Below, in pieces: positions 1 to 16,304 of a stretch of 64,000 bases of DNA (the first letter of the stretch is position 1; each line of letters opens with the position of its first letter). Position numbers and translations under genes: made by a program. This DNA comes from Rhodovulum sp. P5. GTDB taxonomy: Bacteria > Pseudomonadota > Alphaproteobacteria > Rhodobacterales > Rhodobacteraceae. The stretch spans positions 1,943,501-2,007,500 of the forward strand of contig NZ_CP015039.1 of the NCBI RefSeq assembly GCF_002079305.1, written 5' to 3'. The notes beneath the pieces are model-generated. The model searched no databases. It saw only the letters and a program-made list of their open reading frames with translations, and had not been told where the DNA came from.

Positions 1-510
1 GGCCAGGATCACCAGCGGATTGTCGGCAATGACCGTCGCCACGACATCCAGCCCACCGGGCACGGTGCCCAGGATACAAAGGTCATCCTCGTTCTGTGAA
101 AGCCGTTCCAGAACGGTCTGGCGGTTGGTGACCATCAGCGCCACCTCGATCCCCGGATTGGCGTCGCAGAAGCTTCCCAGCAGCCGGGGCAGGAAATACT
201 GCGCGGTCGACACGATGGCGATTCGCAGCTTGCCCTGCCTCAGCCCCTTCATGTCGGCCAGGCGCATATGCATCCGCTCCACCGCGTCCAGCGCCTCTCG
301 CGCGCCGTCCACCGTGACCTTGCCCGCCTCGGTCAGGAACATCCGCTTGCCGATCCGTTCGAACAGGGGATGACCCAGCCGTTCCTCCAGCTGCTTGACC
401 TGCGAAAACACCGCGGGTTGCGTCAGGTGCAATTCCTCGGCCGCACGGGTGTAGCTTTCGTGGCGCGCCACGGAAAGGAAGACGCGAAGCTGGCGGAGAC
501 TGGCCGGCAT
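1..510 (-). CDS. cbbR: LysR-family regulator of the cbb operon (CbbR), 3' part cut by window edge
   Basis: The N-terminal 170 residues or so are present and the C-terminus runs off the left edge. The start begins MPASLRQLRVFLSVARHESY and is followed by the LysR winged-helix DNA-binding domain (residues about 1-60, with AAEELHLTQPAVFSQVKQLE as recognition region) and the start of the periplasmic-binding-protein-like effector domain. It is divergent from cbbL with 123 bp between starts, the classic cbbR-cbbLS arrangement. In this family CbbR activates the Calvin-cycle operon in response to metabolites such as RuBP or NADPH. The family call is certain; the CbbR name rests on context. Confidence 0.9.
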   Translation of the reverse strand, partial: MPASLRQLRVFLSVARHESYTRAAEELHLTQPAVFSQVKQLEERLGHPLFERIGKRMFLTEAGKVTVDGAREALDAVERMHMRLADMKGLRQGKLRIAIVSTAQYFLPRLLGSFCDANPGIEVALMVTNRQTVLERLSQNEDDLCILGTVPGGLDVVATVIADNPLVILA

Positions 511-633
511 GAATAACCTATTACCTATTCTTCCGATAAAAACTATTCAGTTTTGTATATGACATCAAGCGGCCATAGTCCTCCCGACTCGAGTGATCGA
601 GGCAACGACAGCATCAACCGCGGAGGAGGACAG
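511..633. promoter_or_regulatory. cbbR-cbbL divergent promoter and operator region
   Basis: This AT-rich 123-bp gap lies between the divergent starts of cbbR and cbbL. It holds a tandem heptamer ACCTATT at 516-522 and 523-529, and a related ACTATT at 542-547, close to cbbR. CbbR sites are normally built from TNA-type half-sites in such a gap, so these repeats are the best candidate operator. A strong ribosome-binding site GGAGGAGG lies at about 622-629 and fixes the cbbL start at 634. The exact -35/-10 boxes are not clear to me. Confidence 0.5.
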
Positions 634-2055
634 ATGTCTGCCAAGAAATATGATGCCGGTGTGAAGGAATACCGGTCCACCTACTGGGAACCCGAATACT
701 CCATCAAGGAGAGCGACGTTCTAGCCGTGTTCAAGGTGATCCCGCAGCCGGGCGTGTCGCGCGAAGAAGCCGCTGCCGCCGTGGCCGCCGAAAGCTCCAC
801 CGGGACGTGGACGACGGTGTGGACCGACCTTCTGACCGATCTGGACTACTACAAGGGCCGGGCCTACGCGATCGAGGACGTGCCGGGGTCTGACGATGCC
901 TTCTACGCCTTCATCGCCTACCCGATGGACCTGTTCGAGGAAGGCTCGGTCGTCAACGTCTTCACCTCGATCGTTGGCAACGTGTTCGGCTTCAAGGCCG
1001 TCCGCTCGCTGCGTCTGGAAGATGTCCGCTTCCCGCTGTGGTTCGTGACCTCGTGCTTTGGCCCGCCGCACGGCATCAATGTCGAACGCGACAAGATGGA
1101 CAAGTACGGCCGTCCGCTTTTGGGCTGCACCATCAAGCCGAAGCTGGGCCTGTCGGCAAAGAACTACGGCCGGGCAGTGTACGAGGTGCTGCGCGGCGGT
1201 CTCGACTTCTCGAAAGACGACGAGAACGTCAACTCGCAGCCCTTCATGCGCTGGCGCGACCGCTTCCTGTTCTGCCAGGAGGCCATCGAGAAATCCGAGG
1301 CCGAAACTGGCGAGCGCAAGGGTCACTACATGAACGTGACCGCGCCCACCATGGAAGAGGTCTACAAGCGCGCCGAATTCGCGAAAGAGATCGGCACCCC
1401 GATCATCATGTCGGACTACCTGACGCTGGGCTGGGCGGCGCATAACTCGCTGTCGAAATGGTGCCGCGACAATGGCCTGCTGCTGCACGTTCACCGCGCC
1501 ATGCACGCCGTGATGGACCGCAACCCCAACCACGGCATCAACTTCCGCGTTCTGGCGAAACTGCTGCGCCTGCTGGGCGGCGACCACCTGCATTCGGGCA
1601 CGGTTGTCGGCAAGCTGGAAGGCGACCGCGCCGCGACGCTGGGCTGGATCGACCTGCTGCGCGACCGCTATGTCAAGGAAGACCGCGACCGCGGGATCTT
1701 CTTCGACCAGGACTGGGGCGCGATGCCGGGCGTCTTCCCGGTGGCCTCGGGCGGCATCCATGTCTGGCACATGCCGGCGCTGGTCTCGATCTTCGGCAAC
1801 GACTCGGTGCTGCAATTCGGCGGCGGTACGCTGGGCCACCCGTGGGGCAACGCGGCGGGCGCCGCTGCCAACCGTGTGGCGCTGGAGGCCTGCGTGCAGG
1901 CCCGCAACGAGGGCCGCGAACTGGAAAAGGAAGGCAAGGAAATCCTCACCGCTGCCGCCCAGCACTCCCCCGAACTCAAGATCGCCATGGAGACCTGGAA
2001 AGAGATCAAGTTCGAGTTCGACACCGTGGACAAGCTGGACACCCAGCACCGCTAA
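634..2055 (+). CDS. cbbL: Form IA ribulose-1,5-bisphosphate carboxylase/oxygenase large subunit
   Basis: This 473-residue protein fixes CO2 onto RuBP (and also oxygenates it) in the Calvin cycle. Seen directly: the 60s loop [13 protein letters not shown], the active-site KPKLG (Lys about 168), the carbamylated lysine in [11 protein letters not shown] (Lys about 194), HVHRAMH, loop 6 GTVVGKLEG (Lys about 327), SGGIHVWH and [12 protein letters not shown]. These, and the C-terminus ending near FDTVDKLDT, fit form IA. A longer in-frame start at 553 exists, but the ATG at 634 directly follows GGAGGAGG and gives the normal N-terminus. Odd point: the segment at residues 260-271 reads [12 protein letters not shown], where form I enzymes normally have HDYxTGGFTANT, and TCGGPP is replaced by SCFGPP. 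cbbS follows 33 bp downstream. Confidence 0.98.
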
Positions 2056-2088
2056 GCCGCGCCACGATCAAAGGAAAGGAAGAACACG

Positions 2089-2442
2089 ATGAGCGTTCAG
2101 GACTACAAGTCGCGGCTTTCGGATCCGGCCAGCCGCAAGATGGAGACCTTCTCCTACCTGCCCGAAATGACGGACGAGCAGATCCGCAAGCAGGTGGAGT
2201 GGATCGTCAAGCATGGCTGGAACCCGGCCATCGAACACACCGAACCGCAATTCGCCCGGTCCAACTACTGGTACATGTGGAAGCTGCCGATGTTCGGGGA
2301 AACCGATGTCGACGCGATCCTGGCCGAGCTGAAGGCCTGCCACGAGGCGAACCCCGACAACCATGTCCGCCTGATCGGGTACAACAACTACACCCAGAGC
2401 CAGGGCGCCAACATGGTCGTCTATCGCGGCACGCCCGTGTGA
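2089..2442 (+). CDS. cbbS: RuBisCO small subunit
   Basis: This 117-residue small subunit begins [20 protein letters not shown] and continues [19 protein letters not shown], with the family signature [14 protein letters not shown] and a C-terminal [11 protein letters not shown]. It caps the L8S8 form I holoenzyme. It lies 33 bp after cbbL with an AGGAAAGGAAG ribosome-binding stretch, so the two are co-translated from one mRNA. The [12 protein letters not shown] N-terminus is typical of the form IA enzymes that occur without carboxysomes, and no carboxysome genes follow. Confidence 0.98.
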
Positions 2443-2451
2443 TGAACCTTT

Positions 2452-2479
2452 CCCGCCGGCCTCGCGTTGGGCCGGCGGG
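2452..2479 (+). other. GC-rich hairpin between cbbS and cbbQ
   Basis: A perfect 10-bp stem, CCCGCCGGCC paired with GGCCGGCGGG, with an 8-nt loop lies 9 bp after the cbbS stop. No T-run follows, so it is unlikely to be a full Rho-independent terminator. More likely it is a processing or stability element that keeps cbbLS mRNA in excess over the cbbQO part. Confidence 0.65.
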
Positions 2480-2503
2480 CACCATCGTTCAGGGAGGGAA
2501 CCG

Positions 2504-3307
2504 ATGAAAGACATGATCGAGCAATACCGTGTGACGGACGAACCCTATTACCGGTCGGTGTCCGACGAGGTTGACCTGTTCGAAGCCGCCTATGCCGCGA
2601 AGATGCCGGTGATGCTGAAGGGCCCCACCGGATGCGGCAAGACCCGTTTCGTCGAACACATGGCGTGGAAGCTGGGCAAGCCGCTGGTCACCGTGGCCTG
2701 TAACGAGGACATGACCGCCAGCGATATCGTGGGCCGGTTCCTTCTGGATGCGGACGGCACGCGCTGGCAGGACGGGCCGCTGACCTTTGCCGCGCGCAAT
2801 GGCGCGATCTGTTACCTGGATGAAATTGTCGAGGCCCGGCAGGACACGACCGTCGTGATCCACCCGCTGACCGACAATCGCCGCGTTCTGCCCCTTGAGA
2901 AGAAGGGCGAATTGCTCCGCGCGCACGAGGATTTTCACCTCGTGATCTCGTACAACCCCGGCTACCAGAGCCTGATGAAGGACCTGAAACAGTCCACCAA
3001 GCAACGCTTTGGCGCACTGGATTTCAACTATCCCGAACATGGGGTCGAGGTCGAAATCGTATCGCACGAATCCGGTATCGATGCGAAGGATGCCGACAAG
3101 CTGGTCTCGATCGCCGAACGCGCCCGGAACCTGAAGGGCCACGGGCTGGACGAAGGGATTTCCACGCGGATGCTGATCCATGCAGGATCACTGATGGCGG
3201 GCGGGATCGAACCCGTCGCTGCCTGCCACATGGCCCTTGTCCGCCCGATCACCGACGACCCGGATATGCGCGACGCGCTTGACGCTGCCGTCGCCACCTA
3301 TTTCTGA
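2504..3307 (+). CDS. cbbQ: CbbQ, MoxR-type AAA+ ATPase of the RuBisCO activase
   Basis: This 267-residue AAA+ protein forms the ATPase ring that, with CbbO, remodels inhibited RuBisCO. Visible motifs are Walker [11 protein letters not shown] (residues about 39-48), Walker [12 protein letters not shown], a sensor-like SYNPGY, and the MoxR-family C-terminal lid with [10 protein letters not shown]. Length matches CbbQ/NirQ/NorQ proteins. The start has a good ribosome-binding site (CAGGGAGGGAACCG). Its position between cbbS and cbbO makes CbbQ rather than NorQ the clear choice. Confidence 0.95.
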
Positions 3308-3317
3308 GGGGGGTCGC

Positions 3318-5609
3318 ATGGCCCTCGCCCTTGAAGACCACGCCGAGTTGACCGACGAGTTGGACGAGGCGCAGCGTGCCATTCTGGAACAATGCTGGCC
3401 CGATGCGATCCGGGTGCTCAGCCCCCGCGGCATCGACAACTGGCTGAAGGGCGCCGTCGCGCTGGCGCATATGGGCCGGGGCGACCACATCGTGCGGACA
3501 TGGATCGAGGTGGTGCCGACACTTGCCCGCGATCTGGGCGAAGACATCATTCCCGATCTGGCGCAGGCCTGTCTTGGCTTTGCCTCCCGCACCTCGGGCG
3601 CCGTTATCGAACGCGTGATCGCGACCGCGCCGGTCGCCTCGCGCCGCCTGTCCGACCCCGACCTTTTCCGCGCCTATATCCAGCTTTTGAACCAGATGCT
3701 GGCCCAAGCGCCGCGGGGCCTGCGCCCCATGCTGGAACATCTGGAAGAGTTGCTGGACGTTCTGACGCTTGGCGGGCTGCGCCGCTGGGCCAACTGGGGC
3801 GCGCAGGCCCATCGCACGAATTACGAGGAACTGACCCGCTATTTCAGTCTTGAGAGCGCGGAGTCGAAGGCAATCCTGCAGAATGAGCGCAAGGGCACGC
3901 TGTTCGTCGATATCCACCGGCGGATCGGTATGTATCTGCGCGCGCTCTGGGGCCGGGATTTCCTGATGCGCCCCACGGCGGGCGATTTCGAAAGTCGGGA
4001 GGGCGCCCGCCCCTTCATCGCCGAATTCTTCCTGCACCTGCCCGATGCCTATGACGACTGGAACGGCCTGCCGGGGCTCGATCTCTACCGCGCCGCCGCC
4101 GCCCATGCCGCGGCCCATGTGGCCGAAACCACCGCGGCCATTCCGGGTGACGAGTTGAACGCCCTGCAACAGTCCTGCGTCGGCCTGATCGAGGATGCGC
4201 GGGTCGAGGCGCTGGCTATTGCCCAGTTCCCCCGCCTGCGCGATCTGTGGCGGAAGTTCCACGCCCCCGCCAGCGATGGCGGCATGGGCGCGCAATTCGA
4301 CCGCATCGCCCTTGGGTTGCTGGACCCGGAGGCCGAGATCGACGACCCCATCGTCGATTGGGCACGCACCGAATTCGCCAAGGCCGATCTGTCTGATGCC
4401 GCCATGTCGCGCGACCTAGGTCTGCAACTGGCCCATCAGTTACGGGCCAAGCCATTCTCGGCCTATCGCGACGGGCAAGGCGCGCCCTATCGCGACGACA
4501 ACCGCTATATCTGGGAGTTCGAGGAGATCGACTGGGAGAAGGGCTTCGCCCCCGAACCGCAGGTCCGCAAATACGTCTCCGTCTCGGAAATGGTGAACGA
4601 GGTCGAGGTCGAGACGGCCGGGGACGACGCGCAGGAAATCTGGGTGTCAGAGCACGAGTTGTTCGACGATGACGGCCTGTCCTTCAACGAGAAAGAGGGC
4701 AAGGAACCGACCTCGCCCCCTGTTCCCTATGACGAGTTCGACTACAAGATCCAGATGCACCGCCCGGCCTGGGCCACGGTGATGGAAAAGCGCCCGAAGC
4801 TGGGCGACCCGACCGAGATCGACGCGATCCTGACCGAGAACCGCAAACTGACCCAGCGGATGCGCCACCTGCTGGACGCGATGCAGCCGCAGGGCGTCCA
4901 GCGCATCCGAAAGCTGGAAGATGGCGACGAGATCGACATCAACGCCGCGCTACAGGCGATGGTGGATATCCGCATGGGCTATCAGCCCGACCCGCGGATC
5001 ATGATGCGATCCGTGCGCAAGGTGCGCGATATCGCGGTGATGACCCTTCTCGACCTGTCGGAGTCGACCAATGATCAGGTCGCGGGGCGCGATGAAACCG
5101 TGCTGGACCTGACCAAGGCCGCCACGGTTCTGCTGGCCGAGGCGATCCACAAGGTCGGCGACAGCTTTGCGCTGCACGGCTTCTGTTCCGACGGGCGGCA
5201 CAACGTGTTCTATCAGCGCTACAAGGATTTCGACCAGCGCTGGGACGAAATGCCGAAAGCGCGCCTTGCGGCCATGCAGGGGCAGTTGTCCACCCGGATG
5301 GGCGCGGCGATCCGTCATGCGGGCGCGCATCTGGCCAAGGTGACCGCCAACAAGAAGCTGATGCTGGTCCTGACCGACGGGGCACCATCCGATATTGACG
5401 AGCGCGACCCGCAATACCTGCGCCAGGACGCCCGCGCGGCCGTGGTGGAGGTTCAGAAACAGGGCGTGATCCCGTTCTGCCTGACGCTCGACCCGCGGGC
5501 CGACCAGTATGTGGCGCAGATCTTCGGGCAGCGGAACTACCTGATCCTCGACCATGTGGAACGTCTGCCAGAACGCCTGCCGCAGCTTTACGCGGGCCTG
5601 ACGCGGTAG
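3318..5609 (+). CDS. cbbO: CbbO, VWA-domain adaptor of the RuBisCO activase
   Basis: This 763-residue protein recruits the CbbQ ATPase to RuBisCO. The C-terminal von Willebrand A domain (from about residue 570) carries the MIDAS motif DLSEST and a later LTDGAPSD. The long N-terminal region is helical and typical of CbbO/NorD. An in-frame start exists 81 bp upstream inside cbbQ, but the ATG at 3318 follows GAGGGGGG and begins MALALEDHAEL, so it is preferred. It is 10 bp after cbbQ and is the last gene of the cbb operon. NorD is the main alternative name, made unlikely by the cbbLS context. Confidence 0.94.
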   Translation: MALALEDHAELTDELDEAQRAILEQCWPDAIRVLSPRGIDNWLKGAVALAHMGRGDHIVRTWIEVVPTLARDLGEDIIPDLAQACLGFASRTSGAVIERVIATAPVASRRLSDPDLFRAYIQLLNQMLAQAPRGLRPMLEHLEELLDVLTLGGLRRWANWGAQAHRTNYEELTRYFSLESAESKAILQNERKGTLFVDIHRRIGMYLRALWGRDFLMRPTAGDFESREGARPFIAEFFLHLPDAYDDWNGLPGLDLYRAAAAHAAAHVAETTAAIPGDELNALQQSCVGLIEDARVEALAIAQFPRLRDLWRKFHAPASDGGMGAQFDRIALGLLDPEAEIDDPIVDWARTEFAKADLSDAAMSRDLGLQLAHQLRAKPFSAYRDGQGAPYRDDNRYIWEFEEIDWEKGFAPEPQVRKYVSVSEMVNEVEVETAGDDAQEIWVSEHELFDDDGLSFNEKEGKEPTSPPVPYDEFDYKIQMHRPAWATVMEKRPKLGDPTEIDAILTENRKLTQRMRHLLDAMQPQGVQRIRKLEDGDEIDINAALQAMVDIRMGYQPDPRIMMRSVRKVRDIAVMTLLDLSESTNDQVAGRDETVLDLTKAATVLLAEAIHKVGDSFALHGFCSDGRHNVFYQRYKDFDQRWDEMPKARLAAMQGQLSTRMGAAIRHAGAHLAKVTANKKLMLVLTDGAPSDIDERDPQYLRQDARAAVVEVQKQGVIPFCLTLDPRADQYVAQIFGQRNYLILDHVERLPERLPQLYAGLTR

Positions 5610-5616
5610 CGGAGAA

Positions 5617-5639
5617 GCCGGGGCGACACCCGCCCCGGC
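5617..5639. terminator. Shared hairpin between converging cbb and bhc operons
   Basis: The stem GCCGGGGCG / CGCCCCGGC with a 5-nt loop sits in the 37-bp gap between the cbbO and bhcD stops. It is symmetric, so it could end transcription from both sides. The T-tract is weak on both strands, so termination strength is uncertain. Confidence 0.6.
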
Positions 5640-5646
5640 CTGAGCG

Positions 5647-6615
5647 TTATACCTCGACCTCGACGGCAATGCCCTTTTCGCGCGCCAGATCGACGGCCCT
5701 GGCCGCAACGGCAAGATCCTGAAGGCCGACGCCGGTCCCGTCGAACAGGGTCACGTCCTCGTCCGACGACCGCCCCGGATGGGTTCCGTTGATGACCTCC
5801 CCGATCTGGGTGATGTCGCCTTCGGCTTTCAGCCCCGCGCCAACCGCGTGCTGCGCCTCACCGATGCTGATCGACTGCGCGATCTCGTCGGTGAAAACGG
5901 TCGCGCGGGCCACCAGTGCGGCCTCGACCTCCTGCTTGCCTTTGGTGTCGGTGCCCATGCAGGCGATATGGGTGCCGGGTTTCACATGCGCGTCCATCAA
6001 CGAGGGCGAGAAGGCCGAGGTGATGGTGATGATCACATCCGCCTGCGCGCCCAACTGTTCCAGCGAGACGGTCTCGAACGGCAAACCAAGTTCTGCCGCC
6101 GTTTCCCCCAGCTTTGGCAGCATCTCTGGGTGATAGTTCCAGGCCACGACCTTTTCGAAATCGCGTTGGCGCACGGCCGCGCGCAACTGGAAATGCGACT
6201 GGTGCCCGGCACCCACCATGCCCAGCACCTTGGCATCGGGGCGCGCCAGATGCTTGATCGACACGGACGAGGCCGCCGCCGTCCGCAGCGCGGTCAGAAG
6301 GTTGCCGCCCACCATGGCCTCCACCCGGCCGGTATCGGGGTCGAACAGGAACACCGTCGACTGGTGGTTGATGATGCCCCGGCGTTCAAGGTTGTTCGGC
6401 CAGTAACCCCCGGCCTTGACGCCCAAGACCAGCCCCGACCGGTCGAACCCGCCCTTGAAGCCGTAAAGCGCGTCTTCGTGCCCGATCGCCTCGCGCACAA
6501 CGGGGAAGTTGTAGGCATCACCCGCCGCCATCGCTGCGAACACCGCCTCGACCGCGTCGAAACTTTCTTCTGCCGAGATCAGCCCGGCAATCTCCTTCTC
6601 GGGAACGATGAACAT
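5647..6615 (-). CDS. bhcD: Iminosuccinate reductase of the beta-hydroxyaspartate cycle (ornithine cyclodeaminase/mu-crystallin fold)
   Basis: This 322-residue enzyme belongs to the OCD/mu-crystallin family. It shows a Rossmann motif GMVGAGHQSHFQL, the active-site lysine region LGVKAGGYWPNN and the arginine of LLTALRTAAAS. In the BHA cycle BhcD reduces iminosuccinate to aspartate with NADH, regenerating the amino donor for BhcA. The family alone could also mean ornithine cyclodeaminase or alanine dehydrogenase; the complete bhcABC set upstream decides. It is the last gene of the operon, 113 bp after bhcC, with ribosome-binding site GAGGAGGGG. Confidence 0.93.
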   Translation of the reverse strand: MFIVPEKEIAGLISAEESFDAVEAVFAAMAAGDAYNFPVVREAIGHEDALYGFKGGFDRSGLVLGVKAGGYWPNNLERRGIINHQSTVFLFDPDTGRVEAMVGGNLLTALRTAAASSVSIKHLARPDAKVLGMVGAGHQSHFQLRAAVRQRDFEKVVAWNYHPEMLPKLGETAAELGLPFETVSLEQLGAQADVIITITSAFSPSLMDAHVKPGTHIACMGTDTKGKQEVEAALVARATVFTDEIAQSISIGEAQHAVGAGLKAEGDITQIGEVINGTHPGRSSDEDVTLFDGTGVGLQDLAVAARAVDLAREKGIAVEVEV

Positions 6616-6706
6616 CCCTGCCCCTCCTCACAGTTCATGGAAAAGGGCGCCGGGATCGCGCCCGCGCGCCCTGTGTTCTTGTTGGCGTCATGTCACGCAG
6701 AAGGCC

Positions 6707-6723
6707 GCCGCCCATTGGGCGGC
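6707..6723 (-). other. Intercistronic hairpin bhcC-bhcD
   Basis: A perfect 7-bp stem, GCCGCCC / GGGCGGC, with a 3-nt loop lies 5 bp after the bhcC stop, in the largest gap of the bhc operon. There is no clear T-run. It may tune bhcD level relative to bhcABC or protect the upstream mRNA. Confidence 0.5.
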
Positions 6724-6728
6724 CCCGC

Positions 6729-7892
6729 TCAATACGCCTTGCCGCGGGCCGAAACGGGCCAGACGGATTCGACCTTGCCGTTCCGCACACCGACATACCA
6801 GTCGTGCACGTTGCAGGTCGGGTCGCAATGGCCGGGCACCAGTTTCAGCTTTTCGCCAACCTTCAGATGACCGTCGGGGTCTTCGATCACCCCGTGCTCG
6901 TCCGAGCATTTGATGTATTTCACGTCATCGCGGCCAAAGATGAAGGGCAGACCGCTATCGACCGACTGCGCCTTCAGCCCGGCATCGCAGATCGCCTTGT
7001 CGGCCTTGGCGTGGCTCATCACGCTGGTCAGCAGGAACAGCGCGTTTTCCCACTCGCCATGGTCGATCCGGTTGCCGTCCTTGTCGAGGATACGGCCGTA
7101 ATCGGCATCCATGAACGCGTAGGAGCCACACTGAAGCTCGTTATAAACGCCCGAGGTACCCTCGAAGTAATAGCTGCCCGTGCCGCCACCACCGACGATG
7201 TCGCATTCCAGACCCTCGGCCTTCAGCCCCTCGACCGCGTCTTTCACCATCGCGACCGCGATGTCGATCTTGGCCTTGCGGTCCTCGTACTTGTCCATGT
7301 GCTGCATCGCGCCCTGATAGGCCTGGATGCCGGCGAATTTCAGCCCCGGCGCGGCGTCGATGGCCTTGGCGATCTTCACCACGTCCTCGGTCGTGGTCAC
7401 GCCGCAGCGTCCCGCGCCGCAGTCGATCTCGACCAGGCATTCGATCTCGGTCCCGTGTTTCTCAGCCGCCGCCGAAAGGTCCGACACATTGGCGATGTCA
7501 TCGACACAACACAGCGCGCGTGCCCCCAGCTTCGGCAGGCGGGCCAGCCGGTCGATCTTGGCCGGGTCGCGCACCTGGTTGGAGACCAGCACGTCCTTGA
7601 TGCCGCCGCGAGCGAACACCTCGGCCTCGCTGACCTTCTGGCAGCAGACACCGCAGGCCCCGCCAAGGCTTTCCTGCAGTTTCGCCACGTCCACCGACTT
7701 GTGCATCTTGCCATGCACCCGGTGGCGCATGCCGTGTTCCTTGCACCAGTCGCCCATCTTCTTGATGTTGCGCTCCAGCGCGTCGAGGTCCAGCACAAGG
7801 CACGGGGTCTGAATGTCGGCCTCGTCCATGCCGGGCACGGCGGGGATGTCATAGCCCACCTCGAACCCGTCGAAATCGGTCACGTCCTTCAT
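6729..7892 (-). CDS. bhcC: erythro-beta-hydroxyaspartate aldolase (D-threonine aldolase-like)
   Basis: This 387-residue fold-type III PLP enzyme carries the PLP lysine motif HRVHGKMHKSVDV (residues about 57-69) and a C-terminal metal-binding part with SDEHGVI and PGHCDPTCNVHD. BhcC condenses glycine with glyoxylate to (2R,3S)-beta-hydroxyaspartate, the carbon-carbon bond-forming step of the cycle. Length and motifs fit the D-threonine / D-3-hydroxyaspartate aldolase group. Start ATG follows AGGGAGAG. Gene order A-B-C-D is the one known for the BHA cycle in Paracoccus. Confidence 0.95.
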   Translation of the reverse strand: MKDVTDFDGFEVGYDIPAVPGMDEADIQTPCLVLDLDALERNIKKMGDWCKEHGMRHRVHGKMHKSVDVAKLQESLGGACGVCCQKVSEAEVFARGGIKDVLVSNQVRDPAKIDRLARLPKLGARALCCVDDIANVSDLSAAAEKHGTEIECLVEIDCGAGRCGVTTTEDVVKIAKAIDAAPGLKFAGIQAYQGAMQHMDKYEDRKAKIDIAVAMVKDAVEGLKAEGLECDIVGGGGTGSYYFEGTSGVYNELQCGSYAFMDADYGRILDKDGNRIDHGEWENALFLLTSVMSHAKADKAICDAGLKAQSVDSGLPFIFGRDDVKYIKCSDEHGVIEDPDGHLKVGEKLKLVPGHCDPTCNVHDWYVGVRNGKVESVWPVSARGKAY

Positions 7893-7984
7893 AGGAACTC
7901 TCCCTTGATCTCTTGTCCCAATGGCGCGCGCCGTGGCGCGCTGCCGTCGCTTTCAGGTCTTGTGCGGTTCGGGCGTGGCGGCCC

Positions 7985-8956
7985 TTACCCCTTGATCCAT
8001 GGCAGGTTGTCGAGATCGACATTGCCGCCGGTGATCACGACACCGACCCGCTTGCCCGCAAAGATCTCCTTGTTTTTCAGGATGGTGGCCAGCGGCACCG
8101 CGCTGCTCGGTTCCATCACGATCTTCATCCGCTTCCAGATCAGCTTCATCGCGTCGACGATTTCGTCCTCGCTCGCCGTCAGGATGTCGGTCACGTGGTT
8201 GGACACGAAATGCCAGGTCAGGTCCTTCAGCGGCACCTTCAGGCCGTCGGCCACCGTTTCGGGCGCATCATCGGCGATGATGTGCCCCGCCTTGAAACTG
8301 CGATAGGCATCGTCCGCCTGTTCGGGTTCGGCGGCATAGATCTTCGTCTCCGGCGCGATGTTGGAGAGGGTCAGACAGGTTCCAGAGACCATGCCGCCGC
8401 CGCCGATGGGCGCGATCACCGCGTCCAACCCCGGCACCTGCTCGTTCAACTCACGCGAACAGGTTCCCTGCCCCGCGATCACCCGCGGGTCGTTATAGGG
8501 ATGGACGAACTCTGCGCCGGTTTCGGCCTGCACCTCGGCGAACACCGACTCTCGCGAACTGGTCGAGGGCTCACATTCCGTGATGATCCCGCCATAGCCG
8601 CGCACGGCATCCTTCTTGGCCTGTGGCGCGGTGCGCGGCATCACCACATGACAGGGAATGCCCCGGCGTCCCGCCGCGTAGGACAACGACAGCGCATGGT
8701 TGCCGGACGAATGGGTCGCCACGCCCTTCTTCGCGGTCTCGTCATCCAGACCGAAGACCGCGTTGCACGCGCCACGTACCTTGAATGCCCCGGCCTTCTG
8801 GAAGTTCTCGCATTTGAAGAACAACTCTGCCCCGGTCAGGTCGTTCAGGAAGGTCGAGGTCAGGACCGGCGTGCGGTGAATATAAGGTGCCGCCCGCTGG
8901 TGCGCTGCCACGACATCGTCATAGGTCGGAATAAACATTGCCACTTCGTCTCTCAT
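7985..8956 (-). CDS. bhcB: beta-hydroxyaspartate dehydratase (serine/threonine dehydratase-like)
   Basis: This 323-residue fold-type II PLP enzyme has the lysine motif KCENFQKAGAFKVRGA and the glycine-rich phosphate loop IGGGGMVSG. BhcB removes water from beta-hydroxyaspartate, giving iminosuccinate for BhcD. A longer reading frame starts at 9031, but that start lies inside bhcA; the ATG at 8956 follows GGGAGGAC at ideal spacing and gives a normal N-terminus. The gene is 13 bp after bhcA. Taken alone it could be called threonine ammonia-lyase or serine racemase. Confidence 0.94.
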   Translation of the reverse strand: MRDEVAMFIPTYDDVVAAHQRAAPYIHRTPVLTSTFLNDLTGAELFFKCENFQKAGAFKVRGACNAVFGLDDETAKKGVATHSSGNHALSLSYAAGRRGIPCHVVMPRTAPQAKKDAVRGYGGIITECEPSTSSRESVFAEVQAETGAEFVHPYNDPRVIAGQGTCSRELNEQVPGLDAVIAPIGGGGMVSGTCLTLSNIAPETKIYAAEPEQADDAYRSFKAGHIIADDAPETVADGLKVPLKDLTWHFVSNHVTDILTASEDEIVDAMKLIWKRMKIVMEPSSAVPLATILKNKEIFAGKRVGVVITGGNVDLDNLPWIKG

Positions 8957-8969
8957 GGCCGTCCTCCCT

Positions 8970-10148
8970 TCAGGCCGCCGCCCGGACATGGGCGGGCTTG
9001 TTCTTGCGATAATAATCCTGCGCCGCGGCAACCCCGCTGCCGAGCGTCACATCGACGCCCATATCGGCCATCGCCATTTCCGCCGTGGCGATCCCGGCAA
9101 GCGCCATTACGTCGGTCATCATTCCCAGATGGCCGATGCGGAACACCTTGCCCGCAACCGCGCCAAGCCCCGCGCCGTAGGCGACGCCATAGGCATCGGC
9201 GGCATGCTGGCAAAGGGCGTTTCCGTCGATGCCCTCGGGCAACATGATCGCCGTCACCGTATCAGAGTAGAGCGCGGGCGAGACCGCGCAAGGGGAGAGC
9301 CCCCATGCGGCCACCGCCTGGCGCACGCCCTCGGCGATGCGGTGATGGCGTGCGCGCACGTTGTCCATGCCCTCGTCCAGCAGCATGTCGACCGATTTCG
9401 CCAATCCGTTCAACAGACCGACCGCGGGCGTATAGGGATAGATGCCCGTCAGCATGTCGCGGAAATCGAAGAAGCAGCGCGGCAGGCCCCCGGTCTCCAT
9501 CGCCGCCAGCGCCTTGGGGCTGATCCCGACGATCGCCAAGCCGGCCGGCAGCATGAACCCCTTCTGCGAGCCTGCAACGGCCAGGTCGACGCCCCACTCG
9601 TCCATCCGGAAATCGAGCGAGCCGATGGAACTGACCCCGTCCACCATCAGAAGCGCCGGGTGCTTCGCCGCGTTCATCGCGGCGCGAACTGCCCCCACAT
9701 CCGAGGTCACACCCGTGGCGGTTTCGTTATGGGTGACCAGAACCGCCTTGATCGCGTGGCCCGTATCCGCGGCCAGCGTCTGCGCGAACACCTCCACCGG
9801 CACACCTGATCCCCAAGGGGCTTCTATCACCTGCACGTCCAGTCCATGGCGCTGGCACAGGTCGATCCATTTCTGCGAAAACATGCCATGACGCGCCGCA
9901 AGCACCTTGTCGCCGGGGCTGAGCGTGTTGGTGACAGAGGCTTCCCAACCGCCGGTTCCGGAGGCCGGAAAGATCACCACCTCCCCCTCGGTCATGCCGA
10001 TCACCTGTTTCACGCCCGACTTGGCGGCCTCGAAAATCGGCGGGAAGGCCGCGGACCGGTGGTCCATCGTGGGGATGTCGCAGGCTTTTCGGATCGCCTC
10101 GGGAATGTTGGTCGGGCCCGGGATGAACACGGGATTCTGGTCGGACAT
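8970..10148 (-). CDS. bhcA: Aspartate-glyoxylate aminotransferase of the BHA cycle (class V)
   Basis: This 392-residue class V aminotransferase is of the serine-glyoxylate type. It begins MSDQNPVFIPGPTNIPEA, has the PLP lysine in AVAGSQKGFMLPAG, and VDGVSSIGSLDFRMDEW as cofactor-binding stretch. BhcA moves the amino group from aspartate to glyoxylate, making glycine and oxaloacetate, the net product. The ATG at 10148 follows GGAGGAGGAG, so the longer in-frame start at 10202 is rejected. It is the first gene of the operon, divergent from bhcR. Confidence 0.95.
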   Translation of the reverse strand: MSDQNPVFIPGPTNIPEAIRKACDIPTMDHRSAAFPPIFEAAKSGVKQVIGMTEGEVVIFPASGTGGWEASVTNTLSPGDKVLAARHGMFSQKWIDLCQRHGLDVQVIEAPWGSGVPVEVFAQTLAADTGHAIKAVLVTHNETATGVTSDVGAVRAAMNAAKHPALLMVDGVSSIGSLDFRMDEWGVDLAVAGSQKGFMLPAGLAIVGISPKALAAMETGGLPRCFFDFRDMLTGIYPYTPAVGLLNGLAKSVDMLLDEGMDNVRARHHRIAEGVRQAVAAWGLSPCAVSPALYSDTVTAIMLPEGIDGNALCQHAADAYGVAYGAGLGAVAGKVFRIGHLGMMTDVMALAGIATAEMAMADMGVDVTLGSGVAAAQDYYRKNKPAHVRAAA

Positions 10149-10275
10149 GGGCTTGCTCCTCCTCCGTTGGCCGACACCTCTATCGCGAGAGGCCGCCGCC
10201 ACGCAATTTTTTTGAAAAATACTTCCGTCCAGCGAAAAATCGGTGCAGGAGCTTGTTTTTCAAAGGGAAAGATTA

Positions 10276-10300
10276 TTTCATATGGTGAAATTGGCTTTCA
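10276..10300. promoter_or_regulatory. Candidate BhcR (IclR-type) operator
   Basis: Three half-sites follow each other at an exact 10-bp period: TTTCA (10276-10280), TGAAA (10286-10290) and TTTCA (10296-10300). The first two form the inverted repeat TTTCA-TATGG-TGAAA. They lie in the bhcA-bhcR divergent gap (10149-10333), 33-57 bp before bhcR. IclR regulators usually bind such A/T-rich inverted repeats next to their own gene. The rest of the gap is A/T-rich, with GAAAAAT twice, and may hold both promoters. Confidence 0.55.
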
Positions 10301-10333
10301 CGGATTGCCGATGACAGGAAAAGAGGCCCCCGG

Positions 10334-11149
10334 ATGCCCCCAGCCCGACCCCGCGGACGCCCGCGCGCCTTCCACGACAAGACCGACCAGAACACCGTCC
10401 GCTCACTCGACCGGGCGATGGGCCTTCTGGCGGCGCTGAGCGAAACCACCGGCCTGACCCTGACCGAACTGGCAGAGCGGACCGACCAAAGCACGGCGAC
10501 GGTCTACCGGGTTCTGGTGACGCTGCAGGGCCACGGGATTGTCGAGTTCGAGGACGGCACGCAGCGCTGGCAGGTCGGGCCCGGCGCGTTCCGGATCGGC
10601 TCCGGCTTCCTGCGCCGCACGAATGTGACCGAACGTTCGCGCGAAGCGATGCAGGACTTGATGCGCGCCACCGGAGAGACCGCCAATCTGGGGATCGAGA
10701 ACCGTGACGAGGTTCTGTTCCTGACGCAGGTCGAAACGCATGAGGCGATCCGCGCCTTCTTTCCCCCTGGTACGCGCAGCCCGATGCATGTCTCCGGCAT
10801 CGGCAAGGCACTTCTGGCCCATTACCCGGAGCCGCGGATTTCCGCCATCGTGGCGGACAAGGGCTTGCCCGGCTTCACCGACTGCTCGATCACAAGCGAG
10901 GGCGATCTGAGGGAGGACCTGGCCCGCACCCGGGACCGCGGCTTTGCCATCGACGATCAGGAACGCGCCGACGGCATGCGCTGCATTGCTGCGCCGATCT
11001 TCAACGCCCATGGGGAACCGATTGCCGGTCTGTCAGTTTCCGGCCCGGCCTTCCGCGTCTCGTTGCAGCAAGCCGACGGCATCGGCGCAAAGGTGCGACA
11101 TGCCGCCGACCGCGTGACCACCGCCATAGGCGGCGCGACGCCCATTTGA
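10334..11149 (+). CDS. bhcR: IclR-family regulator of the BHA-cycle operon
   Basis: This 271-residue protein has an IclR winged helix at about residues 20-80 (TVRSLDRAMGLLAAL, then LTELAERTDQSTATVYRVL) and the IclR effector domain, ending near GEPIAGLSVSGPAF. It is divergent from bhcABCD. The Paracoccus BhcR in the same place is an IclR regulator that senses glyoxylate and controls bhcABCD, and the same role is expected here. The N-terminal PPARPRGRPRA stretch is basic. An ATG at 10311 is out of frame and not used. Confidence 0.93.
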   Translation: MPPARPRGRPRAFHDKTDQNTVRSLDRAMGLLAALSETTGLTLTELAERTDQSTATVYRVLVTLQGHGIVEFEDGTQRWQVGPGAFRIGSGFLRRTNVTERSREAMQDLMRATGETANLGIENRDEVLFLTQVETHEAIRAFFPPGTRSPMHVSGIGKALLAHYPEPRISAIVADKGLPGFTDCSITSEGDLREDLARTRDRGFAIDDQERADGMRCIAAPIFNAHGEPIAGLSVSGPAFRVSLQQADGIGAKVRHAADRVTTAIGGATPI

Positions 11150-11293
11150 AGGATTTCCTGAGCTCGATCTTGTTTTAAAAATGGGCTGCGGCAAAACTGA
11201 CTTGAGCGAGACATTTTTTCGCTTGCGCTGCCCCCACCCGATCTGGAATATAAGCAGAAAGGCATTTCAAAGACGAGAGCAAAGGACATGCTT

Positions 11294-11770
11294 ATGCCCC
11301 GCAACGATGCCGGACCGCGCCTTGATGCGCTGGACCGGCGTATCTTGGCCGAGCTTCAGGCGGATGCGAGCCAGTCTCTGGACGAGATCGCAAAGAAGGT
11401 GGGCTCGTCCAAGACCCCGGTCTGGAACCGTATCCGAAAGATGCGCGAGGCCGGCGTGATCCGGCGGCAGACGGTCATCGTCGACCCCAAGGCTCTGAAC
11501 CGGTCCACCTGTTTCTTTGTCCTGATCCGCACCTCCGAACATGACACGGAATGGCAGGAACGTTTCCTGCACGCGGTGCGCGAACGGCCAGAGGTGATGG
11601 AAGCGCACCGACTGGCCGGAGAGATCGACTATATCCTGAAGATCTGCGTGCCGGATGCCGAAGCCTATGACAGCTTCTATCAATCGCTGATCGGGGATGT
11701 TCGCATCTTCAATGTCAGCGCCCTGCTGTCGATGGAAGCGATCAAGTCAACCACGATCCTGCCCGTCTGA
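11294..11770 (+). CDS. Lrp/AsnC-family transcriptional regulator
   Basis: This protein of about 158 residues has an N-terminal AsnC-type helix-turn-helix (LDRRILAELQADASQSLDE, then KTPVWNRIRKM) and a C-terminal RAM/ligand domain (residues about 70-150). Two ATGs are close, at 11288 and 11294; the second has better spacing to AAAGGA and is used here. It sits 144 bp behind bhcR in the same direction. Lrp-type regulators sense amino acids, so control of a neighbouring amino-acid pathway such as bhc is possible, but the target is unknown. Confidence 0.88.
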   Translation: MPRNDAGPRLDALDRRILAELQADASQSLDEIAKKVGSSKTPVWNRIRKMREAGVIRRQTVIVDPKALNRSTCFFVLIRTSEHDTEWQERFLHAVRERPEVMEAHRLAGEIDYILKICVPDAEAYDSFYQSLIGDVRIFNVSALLSMEAIKSTTILPV

Positions 11771-11810
11771 CACCTGACCCCAGGGCGCGCCGGGGCCGGA
11801 CATGCGGGTG

Positions 11811-12908
11811 CTACTCCCCGCAGGACGGCGCCGGCACCCCGGCCGGCAAGGGCACGACCTCGACGGGGGCTGGAAACGCATCGCCAACGGGTTCCAGCCG
11901 CTGCATCATCTGGGGCGTCGCCAGAAGGGCACCGGAGTCGGTGATCATCAGAACCCCCTGCACCCCCATTGCCACCGCGACCTCGGCCCAGCCTTGCGTG
12001 CCCGCCACGCTGAGCGCCGTAGCCGCGGCATCCGCCCGGGCCCCGTTCGTATCGAGCACCGAGACCGACACGATTTCGCGAACGGGATAGCCTGTTCGCG
12101 GGTCGATGATATGGGCAAAGCGCTCGCCCTCATGCTCGAAATAGCGCTCATAATTGCCCGAGGTATACAGAACCTCGCCCGGCCGCAGCGCTATCGCGGC
12201 GACGGCCCCCCAGACAAACGGGTCGCGAATGGCAACGCGCCAGGGGCGGTCCCCATGGGTACCCAGCACATTGACATCGCCACCGGCGTTCAGAACCGCG
12301 TTTTCGATACCCATGGCCTGCAACTCGGCGGCCGCAAGGTCCAGCGCCGCCCCCTTGGCAAAGCCGCCAAGGTCAAGTTGCACCGCCGGGTTGGTGGAAG
12401 ATATCCGGGCGCCATCGATGCGCAGATCGGTCATCCGCGGCCGCGCGGCGACCAGCGCGGCGACCCGGTCGGCGGACGGCGGCGCGCCCGTAGGCGGGGT
12501 GTCGGCATGGAACCCCCATAGCCCGATCAGCCCGCCAATCGCCGGATCGAAAAGCCCCCCGCTTTCGCAGGACAGCCGGCGCCCGTCGCGCAGCACCCCG
12601 GCCAACCGGTCGTCGACGGTCAGCCCACGGCCTTCGGCAATCGCGGTGTTGAGATCGCCAAGCAGCCCGGGCCGCCACGCGTGCCAGTCTTCGTGCAGGG
12701 ATTGCAGCAGGCGACCGACTGCGGCGGTTGCTGCCTGTGCGCGGTCGGTGTCCTCACCGCGGATTTCGACCTCGACGAGGGTTCCGAACACGTAAAGCGT
12801 TTCGCGATGAACCCGGTCCTGCCGGGATGCGCGCGCGGCCCAAAGCACCGCCAGAACGCAAACCAGAACAAGGCCGAGGGCAACAAGCTTCGGCCGTCGT
12901 TCTGTCAT
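11811..12908 (-). CDS. rnfF: ApbE-type FAD:protein FMN transferase (RnfF)
   Basis: This 365-residue protein has an N-terminal membrane/signal segment (VALGLVLVCVLAVLWAA) and ApbE motifs: LDLGGFAKGAALDLA, NAGGDVNVLG and HIIDPRTGYPV. ApbE enzymes attach FMN covalently to a threonine in RnfG and RnfD outside the cytoplasm, so its place opposite the rnf operon makes sense. The rnfF name follows Rhodobacter capsulatus, where an ApbE-like gene lies here. The ATG at 12908 overlaps the rseC stop by 4 bp (ATGA). It is the last gene of the minus-strand operon. Confidence 0.92.
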   Translation of the reverse strand: MTERRPKLVALGLVLVCVLAVLWAARASRQDRVHRETLYVFGTLVEVEIRGEDTDRAQAATAAVGRLLQSLHEDWHAWRPGLLGDLNTAIAEGRGLTVDDRLAGVLRDGRRLSCESGGLFDPAIGGLIGLWGFHADTPPTGAPPSADRVAALVAARPRMTDLRIDGARISSTNPAVQLDLGGFAKGAALDLAAAELQAMGIENAVLNAGGDVNVLGTHGDRPWRVAIRDPFVWGAVAAIALRPGEVLYTSGNYERYFEHEGERFAHIIDPRTGYPVREIVSVSVLDTNGARADAAATALSVAGTQGWAEVAVAMGVQGVLMITDSGALLATPQMMQRLEPVGDAFPAPVEVVPLPAGVPAPSCGE

Positions 12909-13405
12909 GCACCGCCCCGGGGATGCGCCGGGACCACCTCTTCGATGCGCATGGCAGCCGCGATGCGCCCACGGCGATCCGCAAGGCGAAGGGGAAGGAA
13001 GGAAAGCGCCAGAACCGGGATACAAGACAGGGCGACGACCAGATCGGACAGGCCGAGGGCCGAGAACAGTCCCGCCGCCAGAACCAGCGCCGCAGGCGGC
13101 AAAAGATAGGCAAGCCCCGCCGCGCCGAGGAAGGCATTGCCCGAGAACGATACGATGACCTCATCGCCGGGCGCGACGGCACCGGTTCGCGGCAGCGCGA
13201 TTTCAAGCAGGCCGCCTCCGGCCATCTCGGCCAGCGCCCCGGTTCCACAGCCGGCACGGGCCGCGCAATGCGCGCAGCCCGCCATTCGGTTCGCTTCCAG
13301 CCGAACGACCGCCTCGTCGACATCCGCCACGCGCAGCTTCTGGCGAAGCGCGCGCCCCTCGCCAGGATCGGCCGGGGACAGGCAGGTATCGCGTTCGTCC
13401 GACAT
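12905..13405 (-). CDS. RseC/SoxR-reducing-system family protein
   Basis: This 166-residue protein has an N-terminal cysteine-rich part (MAGCAHCAARAGCGTG, four cysteines) and two membrane segments at about residues 90-130, the layout of RseC/MucC proteins. RseC works with Rnf-like (Rsx) complexes in reducing SoxR in enterobacteria, which fits a place in an rnf-linked operon. It lies 11 bp after fdxN and is coupled to apbE by ATGA. Its exact role with Rnf is inference. Confidence 0.85.
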   Translation of the reverse strand: MSDERDTCLSPADPGEGRALRQKLRVADVDEAVVRLEANRMAGCAHCAARAGCGTGALAEMAGGGLLEIALPRTGAVAPGDEVIVSFSGNAFLGAAGLAYLLPPAALVLAAGLFSALGLSDLVVALSCIPVLALSFLPLRLADRRGRIAAAMRIEEVVPAHPRGGA

Positions 13406-13416
13406 CGGCTATCCGG

Positions 13417-13614
13417 TCACTCGGCCGGAACGATGCAGCCGTCTTCCATGCAGGAATTCAGGCATTGCGGCATGTCGTGGTCCGGCTCGCATTCGGTGCA
13501 TTTGTCCGCAACGATCGTGAAGACGCCCTTGCTGGGAATGATCGCCCCGGTGGGGCAAACGGATTCGCAATCGCCGCAGGCGGTGCACATGTCGGCATTG
13601 ATCATCATGGCCAT
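13417..13614 (-). CDS. fdxN: 2[4Fe-4S] ferredoxin FdxN
   Basis: This 65-residue ferredoxin has a first cluster motif CTACGDCESVCPTG and a second motif with an insertion, CTEC-x8-CLNSC, as in FdxN-type ferredoxins. In diazotrophs such as R. capsulatus, FdxN is the main electron donor to nitrogenase and is itself reduced by Rnf. Ribosome-binding site AAAGGACC precedes the ATG. It lies 62 bp behind fdxC, in the operon that starts at the sigma54 element near 15335. Confidence 0.92.
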   Translation of the reverse strand: MAMMINADMCTACGDCESVCPTGAIIPSKGVFTIVADKCTECEPDHDMPQCLNSCMEDGCIVPAE

Positions 13615-13676
13615 GGGTCTTGGTCCTTTCTTTCGGGTATTTGGTGTTCGAATTCAGTTCACGCCGGTCATCTGTC

Positions 13677-15288
<1,612 letters not shown>

Positions 15289-15327
15289 TTCCGGCGCTCC
15301 TTCTTACTTCGCGTACACGCTACACGA

Positions 15328-15343
15328 AGCAATCACCATGCCA
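15328..15343 (-). promoter_or_regulatory. Sigma54 (-24/-12) promoter for the flavodiiron-fdxCN operon
   Basis: On the minus strand this reads TGGCAT-N5-TTGCT, one base from the consensus TGGCAC-N5-TTGCW. The predicted transcript would start near 15316-15318, about 28-30 nt before the GTG start of the flavodiiron gene. The NifA-type site at 15459-15474 lies about 116 bp upstream of it, normal spacing for sigma54 activation. Confidence 0.72.
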
Positions 15344-15458
15344 ACCGCCGCCGCCGCACCGCAGCAAAGGGGCGGCAGGTCGGGCAACGGTTTTCACGCC
15401 ATCAAGAAAGCGGCGATGTCGCAGCCCACGCGACGTTGCGACGGGGCTGTCTGACAAA

Positions 15459-15474
15459 TGTCGGTTTTCCAACA
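15459..15474. promoter_or_regulatory. NifA upstream activator sequence, TGT-N10-ACA
   Basis: A single exact TGT-N10-ACA lies in the 434-bp gap between the flavodiiron gene and rnfA. The motif is symmetric and can serve both directions. It is about 116 bp from the minus-strand sigma54 element and 139 bp from the plus-strand one. I found no second copy in the gap. Confidence 0.7.
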
Positions 15475-15613
15475 TAGCAAACCGAGCGTTACCCGCGGCG
15501 ACAGGGCACGCGATGACGGGAACGACACAACGCAGACAAACCGTGCAGGCGCAGCAGACTAGACAGGCGCCCCTAAGGCTGCGCCGGCTGTCCGACCGCC
15601 TTGCACCGCAGCA

Positions 15614-15629
15614 TGGCACAGTTCTTGCT
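15614..15629 (+). promoter_or_regulatory. Sigma54 (-24/-12) promoter for rnfABCDGEH
   Basis: TGGCAC-AGTTC-TTGCT matches the sigma54 consensus TGGCAC-N5-TTGCW at every defined position. The predicted start near 15640 leaves a leader of about 80 nt before rnfA at 15723. Confidence 0.8.
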
Positions 15630-15722
15630 TCGACAATGGCAAACATCTCTCCCTCCCGCCGGGCGGCGCTGAACGCGCCCCGTTCTGTTCCGGCGGACGC
15701 GCAAAGGCGAAGGAGCCCGCAC

Positions 15723-16304
15723 ATGTCAGAGTTCTTCATGATCCTGCTTGGCACGGCGCTGGTGAACAACGTGGTTCTGGTCAAGTTTCTCGGCCTCTGC
15801 CCGTTCATGGGCGTCTCCCGCAAGATCGACGCGGCCATCGGCATGGGGCTGGCCACGACCTTCGTCCTGACCCTTGCGGCCGCGGCAAGCTGGGTGATCG
15901 AGACGCTGATCCTCGTTCCGCTCGACCTGGGCTTCCTGCGCATCCTCAGCTTCATCTTGGTGATCGCGGCCATCGTGCAGTTCACCGAAACCGTGATGCG
16001 CAAGGTGTCGCCGGGCCTTTACCGCGCGCTGGGCATCTACCTGCCGCTGATCACCACCAACTGTGCCGTTCTGGGCGTGGCCCTGCTGAACATCCAGGAA
16101 GAACACAATTTCGCGGAAAGCCTGCTTTACGGCTTCGGTTCCGCGCTTGGCTTTACCCTCGTGCTCGCGATGTTCGCCGGCATGCGGGAGAAACTCGCGC
16201 AGCTTTCCGTTCCGGCGCCGTTTGCCGGGCCGCCCATCGCCTTCCTCTCCGCCGGGCTTCTGTCCATGGCCTTCATGGGCTTCGCCGGCCTCGTGCCCAA
16301 CTGA
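15723..16304 (+). CDS. rnfA: Rnf electron-transport complex subunit A
   Basis: This 193-residue integral membrane protein with six predicted helices begins [20 protein letters not shown] and has the family motifs [12 protein letters not shown] and [13 protein letters not shown], whose cysteines hold a membrane-embedded Fe-S centre with RnfE. Rnf couples ion movement to electron flow between NADH and ferredoxin; in R. capsulatus it makes low-potential electrons for nitrogenase. AAGGAG precedes the ATG. It is the first gene of the operon. Confidence 0.96.

Follow-up and report, generated by a model that had tools for sequence, protein, structure and literature searches.

Rhodovulum sp. P5 carries a form IA RuBisCO operon (cbbLSQO) directly beside a complete β-hydroxyaspartate (BHA) cycle operon (bhcABCD), the two lying within a 64,000-nucleotide stretch of its genome (contig NZ_CP015039.1, positions 1,943,501–2,007,500; here called the window) and facing each other at their 3′ ends across 37 bp. 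Gene order at this locus differs from that in related genomes, and we propose that two known, separately regulated operons were joined by a relocation specific to this lineage (probability about 0.83). In most relatives znuA abuts bhcD and a cytochrome c gene faces cbbO, which makes it most likely that the cbb block entered a bhc locus already in place. As far as these surveys see, the adjacency appears to be a juxtaposition of two known operons in one lineage. Since the relatives point to a move of the RuBisCO block in a single lineage, the position of the two operons does not by itself count as evidence for a natural photorespiration bypass.

Origin and distribution of the cbb–bhc junction

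Of the bhc loci in 14 other Rhodovulum genomes, nine have znuA converging directly on bhcD; in one more (L245) it lies 5.6 kb from bhcD with ureide genes between, and none is seen there in the remaining four. In the window genome 4 bp separate the ends of the znuA (PF01297) and cbbR frames (L003), and cbbO ends beside bhcD at the other end of the block, such that cbbR–cbbLSQO occupies the exact place at which znuA meets bhcD in most relatives. The surroundings of cbb also differ. Elsewhere in Rhodovulum, cbbO of the form IA loci faces a convergent cytochrome c gene (13/14) and mipZ is situated within ~3 kb on the cbbR side (10/14), whereas in the window genome bhcD is downstream of cbbO instead and neither the cytochrome c gene nor mipZ flanks cbb; its mipZ is at C1:458210, ~1.5 Mb away, with no cbb beside it. 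Both ends of the cassette have new neighbours, and movement or import therefore fits better than a single inversion.

In this Rhodovulum lineage a cassette of cbbR and cbbLSQO would thus have come to lie between znuA and bhcD of an older bhc locus. The cbb operon would serve CO2 fixation under CbbR and the bhc operon would convert two glyoxylate to one oxaloacetate under BhcR. RuBisCO oxygenation could feed the BHA cycle by way of a phosphoglycolate phosphatase (cbbZ) and a glycolate oxidase (glcDEF) encoded elsewhere in the genome.

Several points weigh against a simple relocation of this kind. The cassette may equally have been imported from a relative or have moved within the genome, because the groupings in the cbb and ParC trees differ: the window cbbRLSQO forms a group with its R. 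adriaticum and R. bhavnagarense counterparts (bootstrap 100), bhcBCD does not, and the ParC tree places the window genome elsewhere with weak support (67), a conflict that is suggestive at most. The ancestral order is taken from the majority, and znuA does not abut bhcD in five of the 14 relatives. An empty donor site (the cytochrome c gene and the rplS/trmD flank) was not located, no search having been aimed at the cytochrome c gene. In draft genomes, genes on different contigs were counted as non-adjacent, and the place of bhcD in one family genome (G216) is not among the rows listed. Selection could also have preserved a relocation beside a likely glyoxylate sink. That one move should end beside a particular operon, out of thousands of genes, is unlikely a priori, yet many neighbours would look meaningful, and we give this consideration little weight.

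Surveys of the genus (16 Rhodovulum genomes), family (394 genomes, nearly one per genus) and class (385 genomes) found the junction in the window genome (G000) only. Each sample includes G000 and contains one genome per species; as far as this shows, the adjacency occurs in one strain only, an outcome that the first-pass annotation named among those counting against its reading. All 16 Rhodovulum genomes have a form I cbbL (15 at 94–100% identity and one at 58%) and 15 have bhcD. Among the 14 others with both, the genes are on different contigs in ten and on the same contig in four, at distances of 148 kb (G402), 258 kb (G363), 1.24 Mb (G405) and 2.5 Mb (G400). The family sample contains 167 genomes with BhcD over the cut-off and 52 with CbbL (E up to 1e-80), 21 having both; for the 20 of these with both places listed (all but G216), the window genome alone has the genes adjacent, and in the other 19 they are separated by 106 kb or more or lie on different contigs. 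The corresponding numbers for the class are 14, 20 and 2, with the genes 1.86 Mb apart in the second genome.

A search from the opposite direction is similarly negative. No bhc gene is present at 60% coverage or more in the best 80 of 357 confirmed CbbO loci (flanks up to 10 kb, shorter on small contigs). The 30 listed of 258 CbbO and the 30 listed of 835 BhcD matches to plasmid records have no accession in common, but most records lie outside these lists and the comparison carries no weight. The cbb–bhc neighbourhood is not named in the titles and abstract openings of the matching literature listed.

One Rhodovulum genome (G397) has a distant form I CbbL at C1:3965–5362 (L079), 58% identical and IC-like, as its sole match in place of form IA (search with E up to 1e-80).

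The bhcR side of the locus also varies. Hydantoinase-like genes are present there in 11 of the 14 relatives, lying between bhcR and lrp in the nine with lrp seen, and are missing from the window, where the bhcR–lrp gap is 138 bp (11150–11287). A match to hyuAB at 11284–11580 was considered as a remnant and rejected, as it is antisense to lrp and derives from an over-long query reading frame.

Glyoxylate supply and the role of the BHA cycle

The first-pass annotation reported neither a phosphoglycolate phosphatase nor a glycolate oxidase gene in the window, which agrees with tblastn searches using the genome's own CbbZ and GlcD/E/F; both are encoded elsewhere in the genome. A second RuBisCO, of form II (NF010002, 884 bits; L004), is located 1.54 Mb from the window cbb genes in a same-strand row with FBPase, phosphoribulokinase and further presumed Calvin-cycle genes (judged by protein starts), with a divergent cbbR. 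Three genes downstream of this row, on the same strand and preceded by an epimerase-like gene, is cbbZ (L004:5442–6113; TIGR01449, 232.1 bits, cut-off 180). A glcD–glcE–glcF cluster is situated at L208:4202–8189. GlcF passes its cut-off (462.5 vs 333 bits) and GlcE (267.8 vs 284) and GlcD (459 vs 567.9) are below theirs, the putative glcDEF assignment being made by similarity plus gene order; FAD-oxidase_C domains occur at four places in the genome, and only the one within the D–E–F cluster is taken to be a glycolate oxidase.

The genome thus contains a candidate gene for each step from RuBisCO oxygenation to oxaloacetate (CbbZ, glcDEF and bhcABCD). Malate synthase was not found in it (PF01274 search; the control was positive in 6 of 14 known genomes), nor was a glyoxylate carboligase over the cut-off (best 312.7 vs 711.2 bits; one of 14 control genomes exceeded the cut-off). 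Because neither was found, the BHA cycle is likely a sink for glyoxylate in this genome, the search having covered these two enzymes; it may be a sink for glyoxylate from RuBisCO oxygenation.

The glyoxylate could have another principal source. Across the family the BHA cycle may mainly serve glyoxylate from purine and ureide breakdown (through ureidoglycolate lyase) and external glycolate, with RuBisCO a minor contributor, and we give this reading somewhat less than an even chance. Stretches of up to 20 kb around bhcD were compared in 40 family genomes, each of another genus; five stretches end at contig ends, and the loci were chosen by hand from the listed part of the 167, most of them with BhcD scores in its upper half, such that they are not a random sample; related genera are not independent. 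Urate or allantoin degradation genes are present within ~10 kb of bhc in 18 of the 40 (Table 1), and 22 show none. Genes for ureidoglycolate lyase (17 loci, 6–4547 bp from bhcD), allantoinase PuuE (16), hydroxyisourate hydrolase (15) and urate oxidase PuuD (12) recur. Ureidoglycolate lyase is the last enzyme of ureide breakdown and releases glyoxylate. Purine/ureide degradation is a recurrent neighbour of the BHA cycle, and the association suggests that the cycle assimilates purine-derived glyoxylate. A binomial estimate for it disregards common ancestry and the selection of loci, and no probability is drawn from it.

Among the other Rhodovulum genomes, two of 14 (L184 and L245) have a full, family-assigned ureide set beside bhcD; in the remaining 12 and in the window genome the vicinity of bhc shows no ureide gene, the comparison covering the bhc locus. 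Paracoccus denitrificans uses the BHA cycle for glycolate, according to an excerpt of PMC11323563, which is in keeping with the external source. A link between bhc and ureide genes was not found in the literature searched, with the reservation that PMC12599240 contains both BHA and purine terms and an earlier mention is possible; the allantoin passage of PMC11166783 is a reference on E. coli.

The same 40 loci bear on the proposal that the BHA cycle is a natural photorespiration bypass. Here the cycle would be a working route of phosphoglycolate salvage in Rhodovulum, leading from oxygenation through CbbZ and GlcDEF, and the cbb–bhc adjacency would reflect that link. No cbbL (IA or IC), cbbM, cbbS, cbbQ, cbbO, cbbR, phosphoribulokinase or glcD/E/F gene is within ~10 kb of bhc in any of the 40, a small test for RuBisCO with a CbbL match in only six of these genomes (G350, G108, G177, G129, G279 and G103); a CbbZ-like HAD protein (47%) is near bhc in one. 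Nor is bhcD enriched among RuBisCO carriers. It is present in 21 of 52 family genomes with CbbL and 146 of 342 others (p=0.88, Fisher; two of the 52 CbbL matches, in G306 and G108, are partial and related genera are not independent), and in 11 of 19 form IA carriers, one of them partial (p=0.23). The class sample leans in the favourable direction, with bhcD in 2 of 20 CbbL carriers and 12 of 365 others (odds ratio 3.3, p=0.16), although G000 is itself one of the two. Co-occurrence of RuBisCO and bhcD was accordingly rejected as support for a bypass, there being no enrichment beyond expectation.

The gene content of the genus and of the window genome speaks for the bypass: form I RuBisCO and bhcD are together in 15 of 16 Rhodovulum genomes, CbbZ is over its cut-off and glcDEF is clustered in the same genome, and neither malate synthase nor a glyoxylate carboligase over the cut-off was found there. 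On the other side, the adjacency is confined to the window genome, the glycine/serine and malyl-CoA routes could be other glyoxylate sinks, and oxygen is described in PMC8307300 as inhibiting both the activity and the synthesis of RuBisCO in most purple bacteria, such that oxygenation may be small at times when the enzyme is produced. The first-pass proposal of a natural bypass consequently stands in part: there are gene candidates for every step and a likely glyoxylate sink, but the adjacency is not conserved, bhcD is not enriched and the operons have separate regulators. We consider a bypass reflected in the adjacency unlikely. As a hypothesis of gene content for the genus, independent of the adjacency, a bypass is possible, and the useful lead is RuBisCO with bhc in 15 of 16 genus genomes together with the cbbZ and glcDEF of the window genome and its apparent lack, in the searches made, of malate synthase and glyoxylate carboligase. 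Doubtful, and slightly more so than a bypass reflected in the adjacency, is the extended form in which the BHA cycle is a natural carbon-conserving phosphoglycolate salvage in Rhodovulum, chiefly the window lineage, malate synthase and glyoxylate carboligase being missing (as searched in the window genome) and the cbb cassette having been kept through joint use.

The comparison of interest is the BHA photorespiratory bypass engineered in Arabidopsis (PMC8166194, in the part available): glyoxylate formed through RuBisCO could enter the same four reactions, but expression there is tied to photosynthetic promoters by design, whereas no shared regulation was found in the window. If true, a natural BHA-based phosphoglycolate salvage would be a working model for the bypass engineered in plants. 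Excerpts of other reports give some context, describing the BHA cycle as occurring alongside the Calvin cycle in Proteobacteria, with purple non-sulfur bacteria in need of study (PMC8307300), and the aldolase as not encoded by C. necator (PMC7486775). In the available part of PMC9230146, a Rhodovulum is reported to raise expression of its form I RuBisCO during phototrophic electron uptake, and the photorespiration genes of that strain are 2 Mb from RuBisCO.

An artefactual junction produced by misassembly is very improbable, as the window is internal to a contig of 4.14 Mb (genome 4.47 Mb), both boundaries coincide with gene ends and relatives supply the znuA–bhcD order.

Organization and regulation of the two operons

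The features of the locus are listed in Table 1. The complete BHA-cycle operon beside a form IA RuBisCO operon and the coordinates of their convergence on a hairpin, both described in the first-pass annotation, are confirmed, with all Bhc proteins exceeding their NCBIfam equivalog cut-offs; cbbR and the form II RuBisCO are additions to that annotation.

Table 1. Features of the cbb–bhc locus (window coordinates) and family loci in which ureide genes are near bhc.
Feature	Position	Strand	Basis or comment
cbbR, LysR-type regulator	1–510	–	PF00126 + PF03466; 5′ part in window, gene extends beyond window start (L003:19072–19971)
cbbR–cbbL intergenic region, presumed cbbLSQO promoter	511–633		Conserved blocks around CTATTCAGTTTT and CATAG
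cbbL, form IA RuBisCO large subunit	634–2055	+	PF00016/PF02788; NF003252; top PDB match 1svd
cbbS, RuBisCO small subunit	2089–2442	+	PF00101
cbbQ, AAA+ RuBisCO activase	2504–3307	+	PF07728 + PF08406 CbbQ_C
cbbO, VWA-domain activase partner	3318–5609	+	PF00092 VWA; no NCBIfam match; assigned from position and domain
Convergent gap with 9-bp hairpin between cbbO and bhcD stops	5610–5646 (37 bp)		Stem 5617–5625/5631–5639, G+C; fold of both strands
bhcD, iminosuccinate reductase	5647–6615	–	NF045643, 598.5 bits (cut-off 500); PDB 6rqa
bhcC, 3-hydroxy-D-aspartate aldolase	6729–7892	–	NF045642, 771.1 bits (cut-off 690); PDB 6qkb
bhcB, beta-hydroxyaspartate dehydratase	7985–8953	–	NF045641, 615 bits (cut-off 550)
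bhcA, L-aspartate--glyoxylate aminotransferase	8970–10148	–	NF045640, 705.3 bits (cut-off 650)
bhcA–bhcR intergenic region	10149–10333		TGAAA-N5-TTTCA palindrome at 10286–10300; candidate BhcR site
bhcR, IclR-type regulator, divergent from bhcA	10334–11149	+	NF045644, 399.7 bits (cut-off 350)
Family bhc loci with ureide genes	L253–L255, L258, L259, L264, L266, L267, L272, L274, L277, L280, L283, L285–L287, L289, L291		

The two operons converge, each with its own divergent regulator and its own promoter region conserved in relatives. The hairpin between them has a fold z of -4.8 on the + strand (equalled by none of 200 shuffles) and -2.8 on the - strand (by 5 of 200), and is a putative terminator without a T-run. 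The candidate BhcR palindrome has one exact match in the 64-kb window, with a one-mismatch copy beside it (10266–10280); the signal is weak, at least two such matches occurring in 15 of 100 shuffles. Blocks of CAATTTTTT-TGAAAA and TGAAA...TTTCA are found again in relatives. The palindrome is absent before cbbL in a scan of the window, and an Rfam scan of positions 1–16000 gave no matches. No shared regulation of cbb and bhc was found at the sequence level. Because the operons converge and share no promoter, proximity by itself appears to add no evident mechanism.

The presence of cbbL and cbbS with cbbQ and cbbO identifies, at the sequence level, a form IA RuBisCO operon. The form IA label of CbbL rests on the CbbQO genes and on its match to 1svd, which we take to be a form IA enzyme; identities to CbbL of family relatives fall into two groups (76–98% and 54–58%). 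The cbbR gene is divergent from cbbL and 76–90% identical to the cbbL-adjoining cbbR of 14 other Rhodovulum, and cbbO is 78–92% identical to the gene following cbbQ in the same number; the conserved intergenic blocks were identified by alignment of the window with these 14 form IA loci. The operon resembles the cbbR–cbbLSQO form IA operons of other Rhodovulum, Thiobacillus and Nitrosomonas in gene content and in its divergent cbbR. Among the best 80 CbbO loci, some of which end at contig ends, cbbQ is present at 60% coverage or more in 77, cbbS in 73, cbbR in 64 and cbbL in 63. The nearest named loci in that set, which may lack records very close to the window, are those of Rhodovulum adriaticum and R. 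bhavnagarense (92% in CbbO).

The cytochrome c gene facing cbbO in L176 (9930–11378), one of the 13 form IA loci with this arrangement, encodes a protein with a long Ala/Glu-rich repeat that precedes the c domain.

The occurrence of bhcABCD together on one strand with a divergent IclR-type BhcR is that of a BHA-cycle operon, as judged from family matches. The top solved chains for BhcD and BhcC (6rqa and 6qkb) are named iminosuccinate reductase and D-3-hydroxyaspartate aldolase, respectively. An lrp-like gene and then apbE follow beyond bhcR. The cluster is like bhcRABCD of P. denitrificans (PMC11323563, as excerpted), with the four enzyme genes together and a divergent IclR-type bhcR; that cluster is described there for growth on glycolate and glyoxylate and its BhcR as activating bhc and responding to glyoxylate, whereas the 3′ end of bhc in the window faces a RuBisCO operon.

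The loci of R. adriaticum (L175:9388–13707) and R. bhavnagarense (L192:6317–10583) contain bhcR, bhcB, bhcC and bhcD with no bhcA match in the 20-kb stretch around bhc, the whole genomes not having been searched, and their bhcR genes are divergent (54–55% identical). A class III aminotransferase gene (8041–9381) converges on bhcD in L175 and might replace BhcA.

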